From a virus: a DNA stretch of 25,008 nt. A program made the position numbers and the translations under genes. The stretch is taken from the IMG/VR virus record IMGVR_UViG_3300014962_000029, positions 9,366 to 34,373 of that record; one strand, given 5' to 3'. The notes beneath the pieces are model-generated. The model was given only the letters and a program-made list of their open reading frames with translations. It ran no database searches and was not told the origin of the DNA. This document shows, piece by piece, positions 3,787-13,941 of this stretch (positions within the stretch are counted from its first letter, which is position 1; the number at the start of each line of letters is the position of its first letter).

Positions 3787-4752
3787 ATGTATACTAACGC
3801 TGCTGCCATTTTCCGTGGCGATCTCGCTGGCGTTGTCGAGCAGGCTAAGGACTGGGAGTCCAACCTGATCGGCACGCGCGTGATGCCCATCCTCAACGTT
3901 CCTCTCCGCGCTGGTCAGTATCCGTCCTTCAAGCTGAAGGAAGGCCAGCTCCTCAAGAGCGACGTGAAGAACCGGACGCCGTACTCGACGTACGCGCGCG
4001 GCACCCGCTCGTTCACGCAGGAGACGTACACCGCTGCGGAGTACGGCTATGAGGAAGCTGTTGACGATACGGTCGCGCTGGACGTGAGCCGTTTCTTCGA
4101 CGCCGAAGTCGTTGCCGCCAAGCTCTGCTTGCGCAAGCTCCTCCTCGCTCACGAGCTGCGCGTCGCTGCGCAGATCTTCAACGCCTCGACGTTCACCTCG
4201 ACGAACTCCGGCACCGCGTACACGACCGCCAATCTGGCGACGTTCGACGTGGGTCTGGATGTTGAGTCCGCCATCGACCGCATCCTGGCGCTGGGCGAAA
4301 GCCGCGACAACCTTCGCGTTGTCATGAGCAACCCGGTCTGGACGCGCATCAAGGCTTCGACGAAGTTCCAGAACCGCCTCCGCGGCACGGGCCTCTCGAC
4401 CGACACCATCCTCAATGCTTCGCAGCAGGCCGCTGCCGAGGTCTTTGGCGTTGCCGAGGTTCTCATCGGTCGCGCCAGCTATGACAGCGCGAAGGAAGGT
4501 TTGGCCTTCTCCAGCGCGAACGTCTGGTCGAACTCGTACATTTGGGTCGGTGCGGTGACCGATGCTTCCTCCGGTTACTTCGGCGGCGGCACGGGCTTTA
4601 CGCTGAACTGGTCTGAGTACGGTTCTCCGACCGGCGTATTCACCTACCGTGACGAGTCGATCAAGTCGGACATCGTCCGCGCTTCGCACTACGTTGCGGA
4701 GAAGGTTGTGAACAGCAACGCGGCGCAGCTTGTCGCGACGCAGTACGCCTAA
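3787..4752 (+). CDS. Major capsid protein
   Basis: 321 residues. Features typical of HK97-fold capsid proteins of the lambda E-like kind are visible: an N-terminal arm, a central region with ETYTAAEYGYEEAVDDTVALDV, a helix-rich section with LLLAHELRVAAQIFN, then LDVESAIDRILALGESRDNLRVVMSNPVWTRI, and near the end SYIWVGAVTD, FTLNWSEYGSP and FTYRDESIKSDIVRASHYVAEKVV. The motif in which a residue in a strand is followed by asparagine and proline (VMSNPVW) is frequent in this group. It follows the protease and decoration genes and is directly followed by a strong terminator, fitting a gene that must be made in large amounts. No Shine-Dalgarno motif precedes the ATG (CACCTACC). Confidence 0.9.
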   Translation: MYTNAAAIFRGDLAGVVEQAKDWESNLIGTRVMPILNVPLRAGQYPSFKLKEGQLLKSDVKNRTPYSTYARGTRSFTQETYTAAEYGYEEAVDDTVALDVSRFFDAEVVAAKLCLRKLLLAHELRVAAQIFNASTFTSTNSGTAYTTANLATFDVGLDVESAIDRILALGESRDNLRVVMSNPVWTRIKASTKFQNRLRGTGLSTDTILNASQQAAAEVFGVAEVLIGRASYDSAKEGLAFSSANVWSNSYIWVGAVTDASSGYFGGGTGFTLNWSEYGSPTGVFTYRDESIKSDIVRASHYVAEKVVNSNAAQLVATQYA

Positions 4753-4779
4753 TCTCTTGTTGTAGGGTTGTTGTGTTCT

Positions 4780-4817
4780 CCCCTGCTGGCTTCGGCTGGC
4801 AGGGGATTTTCTTTTTT
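4780..4817 (+). terminator. Intrinsic terminator after the capsid gene
   Basis: An 11-base-pair stem (4780-4790 with 4795-4805, two G-U wobbles) is capped by a UUCG tetraloop closed by C-G, the especially stable form. It is followed by TTTT, a C and TTTTTT (4807-4817). It begins 28 bases after the capsid stop. This is a clear rho-independent terminator that would end or attenuate the head transcript before the glycosyltransferase cassette. Confidence 0.92.
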
Positions 4818-4835: not shown

Positions 4836-6527
4836 ATGCGCGTATCGCTTTGCGTCATCTGCGGGAACGAAGAACACCACATCGAGCGGATGCTGGACTC
4901 ATTCAGTCCGGCGTTCGACGAATTGTCGCTGGTACGAGCTATCGGCGCACGCAAGCCAGACCGGACCTTGTCCATCGCGCGTGACTGGTGCGAGGCGCGC
5001 GGCAAGACATTCCGGTTCCGGGAGCACCTGAACCAGCCTGGCGCAGAGCATTGGGAGCACGTTGACTCCTTCGGTGAAGCACGCAACGAAGCCTTCCGCC
5101 AAGGCACCGGAGACTGGCTGATCTGGTGCGACTGCGACGACCTGCTAGACAACGCTGACCGGCTCAAGGAGGTATTGGCCGATCTGCCTTCGGATGTCTC
5201 AATGGCGCGTTTCATGTACGACGTTCGAGGAACAAATAAGAAGCTGTTCCGCGAGCGAGCGATCCGGCGTTCGGTCTTCGAGGCTGGTCGCAAGTGGCAC
5301 CATGATGTCCACGAGAACCTGCTGCTGCTCGCCGGCGACAAGCACATCGACCTTGAGGATCCTGTCTGGATTCATGCGCCGCTGGAGGTCAAGCGCGAGA
5401 ACCGACACCGCAACCTGCGGATCCTGCGCAACTCAGTACGGGATGCGGCCTCCCAGTACTTCTATATCCACCAAGAGCACTACTGCTCAGGCAATTTCAA
5501 GGCTGCGGAGGAGTTCGGCAAGCTGGCGATCTCGATGCCAAACCTGCAAGACTCGTTTAAGTATGAGGCGCTGCTGAACGTGGCACGGGTCTGCGGAAAT
5601 CAGCGCGAGGCGATCAACTATTGTCTGCAAGCGCATGGCGTCTTTCCGTGGTGTCGCGAGGCGCTGAATGCGCTGATTCTGCTGTACTTTGAAAAGCAAG
5701 ATCGCCAACGCGCCTATTACTGGGCCGAACGCGCGCTAGAGCGTCCAGAACCGCCATTAGAGGATCGACCATGGACGCACGAGGCAAAGCACTATGGCTG
5801 GTACGGAATCGATCTAGCGGCACGCGCGGCACGCTACGCAGGCCACGCCGAGCGAGCGCAGAACCTGCAAGACCACTTCCACGCCGGCAAGGAGCCGACG
5901 ATCTCGCTCATTCACGCCACGCGCGGGCGATCCAGCAAAGCCGTTGCCTGCCGCGAAGCCTTCCTGCAAGCCGCCGCAAATCCGGCCAACGTCGAGCACA
6001 TCTTCTGTGTGGACCTCGACGACGGCGTATCGATGGAAATGGCTCAACAGTTTGTTCACGTTACCAGCAAAGAACAGAGCTGCGTCGCGGCATGGAACCT
6101 CGGCGCACGCAAGGCGCGCGGCGACCTACTGATCCAGCTTTCCGACGATTGGTTGCCGCCGCTGCACTGGGATTTGCAGCTCTTGGAACTAGTTGCTTTG
6201 CGCGATCTCAAGAAGGAGCAACTCGCCATCGCGATCAACGACGGTCATCGCAAGGACGAGCTGATGTGCATGGCGATTATGTCGCGCGCGCGCTGGGAGG
6301 CTCAAGGCGATATGTTATTCGCCGGCTACGAGTCGGTTTTCTCGGACAACGAGTTCAGTCATCGCGCCTGGGCTGACAAGATCGTGATTGATGCACGCGA
6401 CAAGGTGACTTTTGTTCATGCGCATCCGCACTTCGGTCATGGCGAAATGGATCGAACCTACGCGCACAACAATCAGGACGCGCGCTACAAGCGCGGCAAG
6501 GAGCTGTTCGAGGCGCGCAATCCATGA
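4836..6527 (+). CDS. Two-domain GT2-type glycosyltransferase with helical repeat linker
   Basis: 563 residues from ATG 4836, chosen because MRVSLCVICGNEE is the usual first strand of a GT-A fold; the longer reading from 4773 would translate through the terminator. Domain 1 (about 1-200) is GT2-like, with DWLIWCDCDDLLDN giving a DxD metal-site motif at D99/D101. Residues about 205-340 look like TPR-type helical repeats (EAINYCLQAHGVFPWCREALNALI). Domain 2 starts near 353 (TISLIHATRGRS) and has an SDDWLPP motif at about 436-442, resembling a second GT-A domain. Likely role: transfer of sugars from nucleotide-sugar donors to a virion or host target. It heads a four-gene cassette and overlaps the next gene by ATGA. 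Acceptor and sugar are unknown. Confidence 0.8.
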   Translation: MRVSLCVICGNEEHHIERMLDSFSPAFDELSLVRAIGARKPDRTLSIARDWCEARGKTFRFREHLNQPGAEHWEHVDSFGEARNEAFRQGTGDWLIWCDCDDLLDNADRLKEVLADLPSDVSMARFMYDVRGTNKKLFRERAIRRSVFEAGRKWHHDVHENLLLLAGDKHIDLEDPVWIHAPLEVKRENRHRNLRILRNSVRDAASQYFYIHQEHYCSGNFKAAEEFGKLAISMPNLQDSFKYEALLNVARVCGNQREAINYCLQAHGVFPWCREALNALILLYFEKQDRQRAYYWAERALERPEPPLEDRPWTHEAKHYGWYGIDLAARAARYAGHAERAQNLQDHFHAGKEPTISLIHATRGRSSKAVACREAFLQAAANPANVEHIFCVDLDDGVSMEMAQQFVHVTSKEQSCVAAWNLGARKARGDLLIQLSDDWLPPLHWDLQLLELVALRDLKKEQLAIAINDGHRKDELMCMAIMSRARWEAQGDMLFAGYESVFSDNEFSHRAWADKIVIDARDKVTFVHAHPHFGHGEMDRTYAHNNQDARYKRGKELFEARNP

Positions 6528-7072
6528 ACCACTTTTTCCACGAGTCGCGCTTCGGTGAGAACTGGTTCGATTACGCGAACATCTACTCGCGGTTTATCGA
6601 GGAAGCGCCAGTCGGTGCAGCCATCGTTGAGGTCGGTTCGTGGCGTGGTCGGTCGATGGCGTTCCTCGGCGTGGAGGCGCTTAAGAGTCAGAAGCATTTG
6701 CAGCTCTACGCGGTCGATACTTTCAGAGGGAGCATCGAGCACGCAGGCCATCCACAGCTCGTGGGTGGTTCAATGGTCGGCCACTTCCTACAGAACATTA
6801 AGCCGATCTTGCACGCGGTGCATTGCCTGCCGCTGCCATCGACCGAGGCATCAAAGCTGTTCGACGACAAGTCGGTGTTCGCAGTCTTCATCGACGCATC
6901 GCACCAGTATGAGGATGTCCGCGCTGACATCACGCATTGGCGCAACAAGGTGCAGCCTGGGGGATACTTGGCCGGTCACGACTTCAGCGGATACGATGGC
7001 GTGCGACGCGCTGTGGCTGAGACGCTGGGTCGCTATACTGTCATCGGTCAGTCTTGGCTCACGAAATGCTGA
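6524..7072 (+). CDS. Class I SAM-dependent methyltransferase (Methyltransf_24-like)
   Basis: 182 residues starting inside the previous stop (ATGA). Motif I for SAM binding is IVEVGSWRGRS (34-44), followed by an acidic residue after strand 2 in YAVDTF (D65). A second acidic motif FIDASHQYEDVRADI (122-136) and the GGYLAGHDF segment (147-154) match the small methyltransferases of the Methyltransf_24 type, often found in sugar and surface-polysaccharide gene clusters. In this cassette it could methylate a sugar placed by the neighbouring transferases, for example on a hydroxyl group. It could instead methylate a protein or small molecule, and the sequence does not decide this. Confidence 0.8.
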   Translation: MNHFFHESRFGENWFDYANIYSRFIEEAPVGAAIVEVGSWRGRSMAFLGVEALKSQKHLQLYAVDTFRGSIEHAGHPQLVGGSMVGHFLQNIKPILHAVHCLPLPSTEASKLFDDKSVFAVFIDASHQYEDVRADITHWRNKVQPGGYLAGHDFSGYDGVRRAVAETLGRYTVIGQSWLTKC

Positions 7073-7839
7073 CAATCTTCACAATCGTTTTGAACGGGAA
7101 GCCGTTCATCGATAAGCAGTTGCCAATCTTTCAGCAGCTCACGATTCCGTGGCGCTGGCACATTGTGGAGGGCGTCTCGCGTCCGCAAGAATGCACGAGC
7201 TGGTGCGCTGAGGTGCAGGACCGCTGGCACAAGAACTGGCTGTCTATCGACGGAACAACTGAGTACCTCGACAGCATCAAGGATCCGCGCGTCCGCGTAA
7301 CGTGGCGGCTCGGTCCTTGGGCCGGAAAGATCGCGATGGTCAACGCCGCGATGGAGGACGTGACGGATGGCGTGGTGATGCAGATCGACGCTGACGAGTT
7401 CTGGACTGCTGACCAGTTAGAGCGAGTCTATGAGATGTTGCAGGACAAGCAGCCTGGCGACTTCGCGCAGTTTGACTGTTTCTACTTTGTCGGGCCGAAC
7501 AAGGTCGTAACCACGCGGCACGGATTCGGCTCCATGCCTTACGAATGGTTCCGCGCATGGAAGATGGCACCGGGACTGCGGTTCAACAGTCACGAGCCTC
7601 CGGTGCTCAACGCTTGGGCGAGCTACGTTCCGCGCGAGACTACGCGCGCGATGGGTCTCGTGTTCGACCATTATGCCTATTTCACCGAGGAGCAGGTGCA
7701 GTTCAAAGAGGATTTCTACCAGTACGATGGGCTTGTCGATGGCTGGCGACGGCTGCAACAGACCAAGGGCGATGTGCGTCTGTGCGATTACTTCAAGTTT
7801 CTCGACAAGCAACCGTGGGTCATCGCGGGCGACATATGA
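7066..7839 (+). CDS. GT2-type glycosyltransferase
   Basis: 257 residues from ATG 7066, overlapping the methyltransferase end by seven bases; a TTG at 7054 is a weaker alternative. The first strand MLTIFTIVLNG is that of GT-A enzymes. The metal-binding motif is MQIDADEFW (D108, D110), preceded by GKIAMVNAAM, a nucleotide-sugar-side helix common in this group. A later part has HGFGSMPYEWFRAWKM and NSHEPPVLN, similar in style to GT2-like proteins with conserved His/Glu in the acceptor half. Likely transfers a sugar in the same pathway as the gene at 4836. There is no membrane helix, so it should be cytoplasmic. Confidence 0.75.
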   Translation: MLTIFTIVLNGKPFIDKQLPIFQQLTIPWRWHIVEGVSRPQECTSWCAEVQDRWHKNWLSIDGTTEYLDSIKDPRVRVTWRLGPWAGKIAMVNAAMEDVTDGVVMQIDADEFWTADQLERVYEMLQDKQPGDFAQFDCFYFVGPNKVVTTRHGFGSMPYEWFRAWKMAPGLRFNSHEPPVLNAWASYVPRETTRAMGLVFDHYAYFTEEQVQFKEDFYQYDGLVDGWRRLQQTKGDVRLCDYFKFLDKQPWVIAGDI

Positions 7840-8543
7840 AAACCATTGTGCTAGTTTACCACGAGCGGCTTGGTGATGTTCTGCGCTGCTTGCCTATTGC
7901 GCGTCACCTAGCGGCTGAAGGCGTCGAGGTTCTGATTGAGTGTCTTCCGCAGTACCACTCACTCTTTGACGCGGTCAGCTACGCAGCGCCAGTCGAGCCG
8001 CGACACAACGCCAAAGGACGACGCATCAACCTTCAGATCTGGCCGGAGCGATACGCAGACTTTCGAGCCAGCGGCAAATCGTGGGCCGATTACGTTTACG
8101 ATCTTGTTCCTGAGTGCGCCGGCATGGATCGTCGGATCGTCTTTGATAAGCTCGATCCTCGGTCGGCTATGGACGACGCAATCATGGGACCGCAGACGGC
8201 TATCGTGTCGCCGTTTGGCTACTCGCAGACGATCCAATACAACCCAGCGCTGGTCTGCCAGTACGCCTTCGCGCAGTTCAAAGCGCCGATGCGGATCTTG
8301 GCTGATAGCAAGCAGGTTGAGGACTGTGTCTGGCGCGGCTGGTCCGAGTCTCTGTTCATCACCGCTCGCGACATTCCCGAACTAATCCGCATCCTACGCG
8401 ACGCTCGCGAGGTGATGACGATCAACAGCGCACCCGCAATCATTTGCGATGCCGTGCGCGAGCGGTACTACCACATCCCGTCCGGCACGTCGCAGGATGA
8501 CACTATCACCGAAAAGTCAGTCGTTGTGACATTTGGAGCATAG
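7836..8543 (+). CDS. GT9/heptosyltransferase-like protein
   Basis: 235 residues, starting at an ATG overlapping the previous stop (ATGA). The opening VLVYHERLGDVLRCLPIARHLAAEG is the characteristic N-terminus of GT-B enzymes of the ADP-heptose:LPS heptosyltransferase type (GDxLxxLP). Near the end MTINSAPAIICDAV (about 194-207) sits where family 9 enzymes have the donor-site segment (DSGxxHLAxA), although the key Asp and His appear replaced. At 235 residues it is shorter than the usual 320-350, so the acceptor half may be reduced. It could be an active transferase or a sugar-binding helper. It closes the modification cassette, and only two bases separate it from the connector gene. Confidence 0.6.
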   Translation: MKTIVLVYHERLGDVLRCLPIARHLAAEGVEVLIECLPQYHSLFDAVSYAAPVEPRHNAKGRRINLQIWPERYADFRASGKSWADYVYDLVPECAGMDRRIVFDKLDPRSAMDDAIMGPQTAIVSPFGYSQTIQYNPALVCQYAFAQFKAPMRILADSKQVEDCVWRGWSESLFITARDIPELIRILRDAREVMTINSAPAIICDAVRERYYHIPSGTSQDDTITEKSVVVTFGA

Positions 8544-8545
8544 GT

Positions 8546-8863
8546 ATGACTGTCCGCGATTTCGATCCCGCTTTGCTGGAGGCCGACTTCAGCGCCATTC
8601 AGGACCAAGCCGGCATTACGTTCTCGATCTTCGGCGTGACCATCACGGGCGTATGGGCCAACTCGCGAAACGTCTTCCAGTCCTTCGAGGACCAGCGCCG
8701 AGACGAGGGCCGGTACACGGTGTTCTTCTTGGCGTCTCAGGTTGTGACTGCTCCGCAGCTTACGACCAATGTGGTGCGCGCTGGCGTAACCTACTTTATC
8801 GAGAACCTGGAGTTCGATGCTGAAGGCTCAGGCGTGCAGATGGAGGTTAGGAAGTCCATATGA
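8546..8863 (+). CDS. Head-tail connector / stopper-like protein
   Basis: 105 residues, beta-rich: FSIFGVTITGVWAN, GRYTVFFLASQVVT, GVTYFIENLEFDAEGSGVQMEVRKS. Length, fold style and position (first of a run of small proteins between head and tail tube genes) match head-closure or head-tail joining proteins of the lambda gpFII/HK97 kind. The segment YFIENLEFDAEGSGVQMEV resembles the strand pair where such proteins read a field as 'thickness plus derived effect'. A modest ribosome-binding site (GGAG) lies about seven bases ahead of the ATG. Specific family not recognised. Confidence 0.6.
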   Translation: MTVRDFDPALLEADFSAIQDQAGITFSIFGVTITGVWANSRNVFQSFEDQRRDEGRYTVFFLASQVVTAPQLTTNVVRAGVTYFIENLEFDAEGSGVQMEVRKSI

Positions 8864-9651
8864 TCGGAATCGAAGTCAGGACAGCCAAGCTAGAGGTTGC
8901 GCTTTATCGATTGGCGAAGGCTGGTAGAGTAGACTTCGGCAAGGTGATCAAGCAGGAGGCAAGCTACGTTCTTAAAACGATCATCGCGTTTACGCCTCCG
9001 CCTAATAGAGCGACTGGTCAAGCTGATGTCACGCTCGATATGAAGCAGCTTTCAAACCCGCTCTCTTTTGATTACTTCAAATCTCGCGAAACCACGGGTG
9101 GTTTTTATCGATCCATCTCGCGCTACATTCGCAGGCGCAGTACGCAGAAACTGCAACAGCTTTTTCAAAACCAACATCTGACCGGATTCTTCGGTCTCAA
9201 GATGATTGGCTCTACAGAGGAGCTGGCAAAGTACCATCGCGACAGTCGGGACGAGTGGGGAAAGATTCGGTACAAGCGCAAGTTCGCCAGCTACGCGACC
9301 GACTACAAGAGGCTGCAACGCGACGTTTGGAATCGCGTCGGCTGGACCATCAACGGATGGATCCCGGCAGCAAAGGCTAGCGGCGCAAAGTATCCGCGCT
9401 GGGCGGAAAAGCTCAAGCCGATCAAGTACGCAAAGAGCGGCGCATCTGGCACCGCGCGCTACAACTTTGGTCCGAATCCATTCATCACCGCGATCAACTA
9501 CAACATCAAGCTGCCTTTTTATCAGAAGCGAGTGAGAAGCGCGCTGCAATCGCGCATCTACATCACCGAGCGCAAACTTGAGCGCGTGCTTGCCGGCAAG
9601 GCTGTGAATCTTGGATTCGTCCGCGTCAAAGGCGGATCTCCCATCATCTAA
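8860..9651 (+). CDS. Neck / tail-completion protein (gp10-like candidate)
   Basis: 263 residues, strongly basic and rich in Tyr, starting at an ATG overlapping the previous stop (ATGA). The N-terminus (IEVRTAKLEVALYRLAKAGRVDFGKVIKQEASYVLKTIIAFTPP) resembles HK97 gp10-type proteins, which start with a helix and then a TPP/TPVDTG-like loop. It is longer than the usual 110-170 residues: a central insertion (about 70-180) contains many Arg/Lys and aromatic residues (RRSTQKLQQLFQNQ, RYKRKFASYATDYKRLQRD). By position it should join the capsid vertex to the tail. Enzyme motifs are absent. Confidence 0.55.
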   Translation: MIGIEVRTAKLEVALYRLAKAGRVDFGKVIKQEASYVLKTIIAFTPPPNRATGQADVTLDMKQLSNPLSFDYFKSRETTGGFYRSISRYIRRRSTQKLQQLFQNQHLTGFFGLKMIGSTEELAKYHRDSRDEWGKIRYKRKFASYATDYKRLQRDVWNRVGWTINGWIPAAKASGAKYPRWAEKLKPIKYAKSGASGTARYNFGPNPFITAINYNIKLPFYQKRVRSALQSRIYITERKLERVLAGKAVNLGFVRVKGGSPII

Positions 9652-9653
9652 TT

Positions 9654-10088
9654 ATGAGCACAAGAACGCAGATCCGAAACGCAATCGGAGCAAAGCTGAC
9701 GGCTGGAGCCGCAGTTGTGCCGACCGCAAATCTTCTCAAAGGCCGAAATAACACCATCGCGTCTGTTTCGTTTCCGTCTGCTGCCGTCTATGCGGTCGAG
9801 GAACAAATCGACGTGCGCTCGCTAGCGCCAAGCAATCGCGTTCAGTATCGGCAGTTGACGGTTAATGTGGACTACTTCACGGCACAGACCGGCGTGACAT
9901 TCATTGATGACTTGTTCGACACCGGATCGGCTGCGGTCGAGGCTGCTGTCCTTGAGGATGTTACGCTCGGCGGCGTTTGCGACGACCTCCATTTAACGGC
10001 AGTGCAATATGTGATAGAGGACGACGAGGACAAGCGCTGGGGTGTCGCGCGTCACACTTTTAACTGCATCTACTTAACCACCGACTAA
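9654..10088 (+). CDS. Tail terminator / tail-completion protein
   Basis: 144 residues located just before the tail tube gene, the usual place for the protein that ends tail polymerisation (lambda gpU-like). The N-terminal helix (MSTRTQIRNAIGAKLTAGA) is followed by strand-rich sequence with FPSAAVYAVEEQIDVRSL, QYRQLTVNVDYFTAQTG and DDLFDTGSAAVEAAVLEDVTLGG, then RWGVARHTFNCIYLTTD. Terminator proteins share this helix, four strands and a helix before the last strand, with a phrase such as LTVxVxY in the middle. The start has no ribosome-binding site. Role is inferred from fold pattern and order. Confidence 0.65.
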   Translation: MSTRTQIRNAIGAKLTAGAAVVPTANLLKGRNNTIASVSFPSAAVYAVEEQIDVRSLAPSNRVQYRQLTVNVDYFTAQTGVTFIDDLFDTGSAAVEAAVLEDVTLGGVCDDLHLTAVQYVIEDDEDKRWGVARHTFNCIYLTTD

Positions 10089-10089
10089 A

Positions 10090-10476
10090 ATGGCTAACCA
10101 CCTGGGCCGCGAAGGCACCGTCAAGATCAGCTCAACCACCATCGGCGAACTGCGGAACTACAGTTTGGCACATTCCTCAGATGTCGTAGAGGACTCAACT
10201 CTGGGAGACATCTATCGCACGCGCAAGGCGACCATGAAGACCTGGTCGGTTTCAGGCGACCTCTACTGGGACGAGACAGATGCCGGCCAGATCGCTCTCA
10301 CCATCGGCTCGTCGGTGACCGTCAACTTGTATCCTGAAGGCGCTGACTCTGGCGACACCTACTACACCGGCGGTGGCATCGTCACGAAGTTCGACATCAG
10401 CGCTGCGTTTGACGGCATGGTCGAAGGCTCGATTTCTATTGAAGGGAACGGTGCTCTCAGCTCCGTTACTGTCTAA
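10090..10476 (+). CDS. Major tail tube protein
   Basis: 128 residues, nearly all beta: TVKISSTTIGELRNYSLAHSSD, then KATMKTWSVSGDLYWDETDAGQIAL, VTVNLYPEGADSGDTYYTGGGIVTKFDIS and FDGMVEGSISIEGNGALSSVTV. The phrase of a shift in energy such as 'W.VSGDLYWD' followed by a final Gly-rich strand (GxISIEGNG) is typical of siphovirus tube subunits that stack into hexameric rings. It lies between the terminator and the frameshifted tail chaperone, the usual order. Its stop overlaps the chaperone start (TAATG), which suggests coupled translation. Confidence 0.82.
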   Translation: MANHLGREGTVKISSTTIGELRNYSLAHSSDVVEDSTLGDIYRTRKATMKTWSVSGDLYWDETDAGQIALTIGSSVTVNLYPEGADSGDTYYTGGGIVTKFDISAAFDGMVEGSISIEGNGALSSVTV

Positions 10477-13524: not shown

Positions 13525-13941
13525 ATGAAAGCGGACAACTGGCCTATCCTGCTTGCTCAATTCATCGAGCAAAGACGCCACGTTCCGTTTAGCTGGGGTA
13601 CGAACGATTGCTGCTTGTTCGGTGCTGATTGGGTTTTGCGCGCGACCTCAAAAGACCTGGCGGCTGATCTGCGAGGTAGATACGGCAGCGCACTAGCAGC
13701 CGCTCGCGTTCTGAGTCAATGCGGTGGAGTGCGAGGACTAATCAAAACCAGAGGCGAACAGATCGGCATCAAGTCAATACCGTCGCGCTCAATTCAGCGT
13801 GGCGATTTGGTCGTCGCTGACATGGGTAGAGGGGAAAGCATCGGCATTTCTCTCGGCAACGTCGCCGCCTTTGTTTCTCGCGACGGCTTAATTTTCGCAC
13901 CGTTTGACTTTCAAATCAACGCGCCGTGCTGGCGCTTTTGA
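13525..13941 (+). CDS. DUF6950 / NlpC-P60-like tail-tip protein
   Basis: 138 residues. FSWGTNDCCLFGADWVLRAT (Cys at 29 and 30) followed by DLAADLRGRYGSALAAARVL and then QRGDLVVADMGRGESIGISLGNVAAFVSRDGLIF matches the DUF6950 family that lies before the J-like gene in many phages and gene transfer agents. Its NlpC/P60 relatives are cysteine peptidases that cut peptidoglycan. In this protein the region that holds the catalytic His in ordinary NlpC/P60 enzymes reads ESIGISLGN, without His, so it may be structural or use another residue. Likely part of the tail tip acting at the cell wall during DNA entry. Confidence 0.75.
   Translation: MKADNWPILLAQFIEQRRHVPFSWGTNDCCLFGADWVLRATSKDLAADLRGRYGSALAAARVLSQCGGVRGLIKTRGEQIGIKSIPSRSIQRGDLVVADMGRGESIGISLGNVAAFVSRDGLIFAPFDFQINAPCWRF

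Follow-up and report, generated by a model that had tools for sequence, protein, structure and literature searches.

What do four genes for sugar-modifying enzymes do between the capsid and the connector genes of an environmental phage? The question was raised by a cassette in a 25,008-nucleotide stretch of viral DNA (the window), which spans positions 9366–34373 of the linear 34,373-bp IMG/VR virus record IMGVR_UViG_3300014962_000029. An initial annotation had described four overlapping genes, here named A to D, lying directly after the major capsid gene and before the head-tail joining genes, and had proposed that they decorate the virion with a methylated glycan. The coordinates of the genes and the overlaps of 4, 7 and 4 bases at A/B, B/C and C/D were found to be correct, and 2 bases separate D from the gene at 8546. 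The gene order was also as described, except that 83 bp with a strong intrinsic terminator lie between the capsid gene and A. Of the head-tail genes placed just downstream, the tail terminator (gene at 9654) and the major tail protein (gene at 10090) were recognised, whereas the genes at 8546 and 8860 have no family match and are connectors by position only. Our results suggested that the locus probably encodes a cytoplasmic virion-glycosylation pathway, set inside the structural gene cluster and varying by module exchange, whose acceptor we infer.

Gene A resembles protein glycosyltransferases

The product of A had been described as a GT-A type protein with a DxD motif at D99/D101. The motif (DCD at 99) was present and the N-terminus matched the Pfam family Glycos_transf_2 (4.7e-12; 46.6 bits against a cut-off of 23.3), but a tetratricopeptide repeat (TPR)-like domain and a second GT-A domain had been overlooked. 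The AlphaFold2 (AF2) model of A (predicted local distance difference test score, pLDDT, 87.3; predicted template modelling score, pTM, 0.81) consists of an alpha/beta domain, paired helices at residues 183–348 and a second alpha/beta domain. The protein also matched PHROG_13126, and PHROG_14945 covered residues 353–552 (2.2e-17); this profile, together with an acidic SDD at residue 436 that is invariant in full-length A, identifies the second domain as GT-A. The DCDD and HHxVHE motifs were both found in 107/107 distinct A proteins, and SDDW in 55/55 full-length ones and in 0/52 from the A–GTg3 clade described below.

When A was compared with the PDB by sequence profile, GmaR was the only match at the default threshold (5.7e-10), in an alignment that takes in the HE motif. 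Foldseek with the model of A returned SunS first (8.5e-15) and then ThuS (7.9e-14), and the alignment with SunS (7msp) comprised 297 columns with a root-mean-square deviation of 3.6 and a template modelling score (target) of 0.64. Listeria GmaR, a flagellin O-N-acetylglucosamine (O-GlcNAc) transferase, and the glycocin S-glycosyltransferases SunS and ThuS share with A a GT2-type GT-A domain and a helical domain, which in GmaR is TPR; by the helices at 183–348 and the SunS alignment, A has the same order of a GT-A domain followed by a helical substrate-binding domain. The TPR domain after the glycosyltransferase (GT) domain of GmaR was proposed to recognise flagellin (PMC9638930), and that of FlmG, another flagellin transferase, was shown to bind it (PMC7591256). 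In A, a second GT-A domain stands where GmaR has linker and antirepressor domains. Because of the GmaR profile match, the SunS/ThuS fold and these TPR precedents, the acceptor of A appears to be a protein in preference to DNA or lipid. Similar-fold GT2 proteins occur widely among giant viruses and uncultured phages. One GT of a tandem pair in Streptomyces phages such as Coruscant matches the C-terminal GT domain of A (29%), but that pair adjoins sugar-nucleotide and accessory genes and not capsid genes. Weak extra GT2 matches were also seen outside the cassette at G013:C1:34030-34176 and G011:C1:25680-26027 (records of L181 and L204).

The fold evidence speaks for a protein-type acceptor and does not say which protein, and the cassette could glycosylate a protein of the host, or one of the phage that is not part of the virion, for host takeover or regulation, GmaR being an enzyme that combines transfer with regulation. 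The genes are, however, in the structural cluster of every relative, and the module exchange described below would be expected of a surface-exposed glycan more than of a fixed regulatory mark; we consider this reading improbable.

Glycosylation of phage DNA bases as an anti-restriction measure was weighed similarly. Phages encode DNA glycosyltransferases, as cited in a passage of PMC12619734, and this phage encodes a DNA methyltransferase elsewhere (PHROG_757; L002 1396-2151). However, A and D resemble protein and lipopolysaccharide (LPS) enzymes and not DNA transferases, and a search for the thymidylate synthase/hydroxymethylase family PF00303, which was positive in control genomes, gave no gene for a hydroxylated base in 15 group records of 33–48 kb, some perhaps incomplete. 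None was noticed among the scanned genes of the window's own record either. DNA modification is unlikely, and we give it very little weight.

The cassette occupies a fixed site and is under purifying selection

Relatives were collected by scanning viral contigs three times, each time with another capsid protein of the group, and by scans with A and D, which together gave 324 loci. Capsid loci were counted when they had more than 2.5 kb of downstream sequence, and distinct counts are also given since loci from one contig can overlap. Gene A was found at the same site in 246/246 such capsid loci (134 distinct), and neither A at another site nor D without A was found among the fetched loci. The ratio of nonsynonymous to synonymous substitution rates (dN/dS), computed against four close relatives, was 0.04–0.07 for A, 0.05–0.09 for B, 0.03–0.05 for C and 0.06–0.08 for D, similar to that of the capsid gene (0.05–0.10). 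All four genes of the window are thus under strong purifying selection, and the arrangement, being recurrent in all the counted loci with dN/dS of 0.03–0.09, is not due to chance.

These results bear on the possibility that the genes are passing morons without joint function. In its favour, the genes behind A come and go, and HNH-type (homing) endonuclease genes insert beside A. Such a gene lies between the capsid gene and A in 10/130 final intervals and 7/79 of the first distinct ones (for example L094:7480-8163 and L151:3446-4129) and is absent from the window. Against it stand the invariant presence and position of A, the low dN/dS in all four genes and the exact 4-base overlaps at 144 of about 170 gene junctions, and we regard it as scarcely credible.

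IMG/VR holds hundreds of relatives of the capsid protein, and tblastn with this protein gave no match to a cultured relative in 50,697 phage records. The terminase shows only about 22% identity to that of Verrucomicrobia phage P8625, in which no transferase is annotated between the coat gene and the connectors. A Betaproteobacteria host was considered and set aside. The sole genome contig with the locus, L154 (VGHX01000030.1; 27,992 bp), belongs to a metagenome-assembled genome and to the lineage (A 93% identical), and the host is not established because this contig equals an IMG/VR virus record in length and match; it is either a host hint or a case of misbinning.

Genes B, C and D encode a methyltransferase and two further putative transferases

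The description of B as an S-adenosylmethionine (SAM)-dependent methyltransferase was borne out by matches above cut-off to Methyltransf_24 (2.4e-16; 61 bits against 26.3) and TylF (1.8e-5; 24.6 against 23). For C, a GT-A type protein with D108/D110 had been proposed, in agreement with a Pfam Glycos_transf_2 match (1.5e-7; 32.0 bits against a cut-off of 23.3) and a DAD motif at 108–110. Sequence comparison of B and C with the PDB gave nothing usable.

The D protein, described earlier as GT9-like, had no Pfam, PHROG or NCBIfam match, and GT9 membership was not found by sequence profile; a hidden Markov model search of the PDB returned spurious matches only and was discarded. In contrast, its AF2 model (pLDDT 90.6; pTM 0.90) matched GT9 structures first in Foldseek (2.5e-6 to 1e-5), namely 3tov (2.5e-6), WaaC (2.8e-6), WaaF (3.0e-6) and the protein heptosyltransferase TibC (6.9e-6). 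D shares with the GT9 heptosyltransferases WaaC, WaaF and TibC the fold, an N-terminal RLGD..R.LPIAR segment and a C-terminal NS.P segment. It differs in its length of 235 residues against about 300–400 and is about 10–15% identical in the structure alignment. Since no sequence family matched, D is described as having a predicted GT9-like fold and is not filed as a GT9 member. The structure prediction called for in the initial annotation thus matched both A and D to glycosyltransferase structures.

Genes behind A are exchanged as modules

The 130 distinct capsid-connector intervals were sorted by architecture. A–GTg3 was found in 66, A–MTg2–D in 32, A–DUF5672–D and A–GTg7 in 6 each, the window architecture A–B–C–D in 5 and A–MTg2–C–D in 3; A–D and A–MTg9–GTg10–C–D were single cases. 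Because at least 9 changes of architecture are needed on a tree of the capsid protein and tail terminator, architecture is mostly clade-bound with repeated exchange. The clearest exchange was in L022, in which A (96–97%) and D (95–97%) are near identical to those of phages with DUF5672 in the middle, whereas B and C, carried instead, are 88 and 92% identical to those of the window. Similarly, C is present in only one member of each of the pairs L036/L037 (A 96%, D 95%) and L283/L286 (A 96%, D 97%), and L046/L053 differ by the absence of the methyltransferase.

In the A–GTg3 clade, A has about 461 residues against about 563–571 elsewhere, its second GT domain is eroded, D is lost and a separate gene with an invariant NDD motif, GTg3, follows A. 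GTg3 had no family match, and we infer that it is a stand-alone putative transferase. Its derivation from the lost second domain of A was not supported by profile-profile comparison (E 0.18), and neither was that of GTg7 from this domain. Because A–GTg3, the commonest architecture, has no methyltransferase, methylation is not a defining feature of the locus, and the earlier emphasis on a methylated glycan did not hold. It is conceivable, if slightly short of an even call, that A stays fixed behind the capsid gene while finishing enzymes are swapped by recombination between A and D, which would make this a glycan-serotype locus; if so, the sugar coat of the particle can change between near-identical phages with the capsid protein unchanged.

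Such modular variation is also like that of O-antigen loci, and the cassette might change the glycan on the host surface (LPS core or O-chain), which could, for instance, keep competitors from adsorbing or progeny from re-adsorbing to debris. D has the fold of the LPS heptosyltransferases WaaC/WaaF, and glycosyltransferases of aquatic myophages were taken to modify O-chains (PMC7029224), which makes a role at the host surface the main rival. Yet the genes lie among head-tail genes with four-base overlaps and not in an early or lysogeny region, the cassette has no membrane flippase or membrane-associated GtrAB-like gene, and its constant enzyme, A, is most like protein and peptide transferases. 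We therefore consider a host-surface role rather unlikely.

The cassette is set off from the capsid gene by a terminator

The 83-bp spacer between the capsid gene and A holds the intrinsic terminator, and the scan found no promoter. A hairpin with a U run was present in 98/109 distinct intergenic regions between the capsid gene and A, against 10/545 shuffles. Because the terminator separates the two genes, the cassette heads a segment running into the head-tail genes and is not a plain extension of the capsid transcript. This lineage-wide terminator resembles a device setting the capsid-to-connector expression ratio.

Virion decoration as the most probable function

Decoration of a virion protein is best supported because A resembles GmaR, SunS and ThuS, TibC is among the fold relatives of D and no thymidylate-synthase-type gene was found in 15 relatives. 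The initial proposal was thus retained as regards decoration, for which the enzyme classes, the position and the protein-type likeness of A speak, and given up as regards methylation as its hallmark. Judging by fold and domain order, A would bind a virion protein, most likely the adjoining capsid protein, through its TPR-like part and add the first sugar with its N-terminal GT-A domain, as GmaR does on flagellin and SunS and ThuS do on peptides. The second GT-A domain of A may then add the next sugar, a step that the unrelated stand-alone putative transferase would take over in the clade with the eroded domain. The exchangeable genes (C, D and B in the window) would finally extend, cap and O-methylate the glycan. 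Some observations weigh against this pathway. The terminator means that adjacency to the capsid gene is not simple co-transcription with it, D is also close to the LPS heptosyltransferases, structural alignment of A with SunS and ThuS gives about 15% identity, and the fold of A is likewise matched by TarS (teichoic acid) and K4CP (polysaccharide), which makes a glycan acceptor possible.

By position only, the likeliest acceptor is the capsid protein. A very long Ser/Thr/Gly-rich repetitive protein, with repeats such as TAGTGISISGGPITTSG, is encoded upstream of the capsid genes, from L002:6497-9424 (genome) to about window position 1399; the assembly there has a few undetermined bases. This protein could be an alternative glycan acceptor.

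Relation to known systems

Demonstrated cases of virion glycosylation are limited to few phages (mycobacteriophages), and it is unclear what purpose it serves outside animal-immunity settings. Freeman et al. in 2023 reportedly described it in mycobacteriophages Che8, Corndog and Myrna. According to passages in PMC12363180 and PMC11256854, transferases encoded by these tailed phages themselves glycosylate capsid and tail tube proteins. The transferase genes of Maravista (F1, a Che8 relative) lie close to the 3' genome end, in contrast to the fixed place between capsid and connector genes seen here. The window group also differs from the mycobacteriophages in its GT-TPR-GT enzyme, its GT9-fold enzyme, its exchangeable methyltransferase/GT module and the lack of a cultured relative by capsid protein. 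The closest functional analogue, put forward as an analogy, is A064R of chlorovirus PBCV-1, whose two GT domains and methyltransferase work one after the other on the capsid glycan in the cytoplasm, and glycan variants there define antigenic classes (PMC7019647). PBCV-1 is a eukaryotic virus, and in A064R the methyltransferase and the GT domains are fused.

No description of this locus was found in the searched open literature, a search that was incomplete. What is new is that the location is invariant, that the putative primer has a GT-TPR-GT build and that the module can be swapped, virion glycosylation itself being known in mycobacteriophages. The constant starter and swappable finishing enzymes suggest a sugar coat that these viruses make for their own particles and vary. 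This environmental lineage, which has hundreds of relatives in metagenomes, a fixed putative primer and exchanged enzymes, is a testable case for variable glycan serotypes, which would affect adsorption, the stability of the particles and the way other organisms recognise them. The locus also offers compact, soluble candidate protein-glycosylating enzyme sets.

Setting of the cassette

Upstream of the window, the record encodes a small terminase subunit, a DNA methyltransferase, a GpA-type large terminase and a lambda-type portal, and the structural cluster runs on inside the window with the capsid gene (PHROG_1005), the tail terminator and the major tail protein. The features of the locus are given in Table 1. 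An upstream GTG at 4773 was ruled out as the start of A, relatives aligning from the M at 4836, and antisense open reading frames in the cassette were artefacts of a longest-frame rule that disappeared under a same-strand gene model.

Table 1. Features of the capsid-connector interval in the window.
Feature	Position	Strand	Evidence or remark
Major capsid protein	3787-4752	+	PHROG_1005 major head protein, 2e-33; upstream locus boundary, plausible acceptor
Intrinsic terminator (12-bp stem, TTCG loop, T run)	4779-4816	+	Terminator scan
Gene A, two-GT-domain glycosyltransferase, 563 aa	4836-6527	+	Pfam, PHROG, AF2, hidden Markov model, Foldseek
GT-A domain 1 of A (residues 1-182), putative priming protein glycosyltransferase	4836-5381	+	DCDD (D99-D102) and HHxVHE motifs
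TPR-like helical domain of A (residues 183-348), putative acceptor-binding	5382-5879	+	AF2 helices; GmaR domain order
GT-A domain 2 of A (residues 355-563), SDDW motif at 436	5898-6524	+	PHROG_14945, 2.2e-17
Gene B, SAM-dependent methyltransferase, 182 aa, variable slot	6524-7072	+	Pfam
Gene C, GT2 glycosyltransferase, 257 aa, variable slot	7066-7839	+	Pfam
Gene D, small GT-B protein with predicted GT9 (heptosyltransferase) fold, 235 aa	7836-8543	+	AF2, Foldseek
Small head-tail-region gene, downstream locus boundary	8546-8863	+	Without family match; conserved and syntenic in relatives

The second gene after the cassette (8860-9651; 263 aa) is about 50% identical in relatives whose neighbouring genes are 90–100% identical, with synonymous sites saturated or near-saturated against those relatives, as if deeply divergent alleles of a neck or tail-completion protein had been exchanged. 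Further downstream, in the tail-tip region, a DUF6950/NlpC-P60-like peptidase gene was found at 13525-13941 (Pfam DUF6950, 5e-30).

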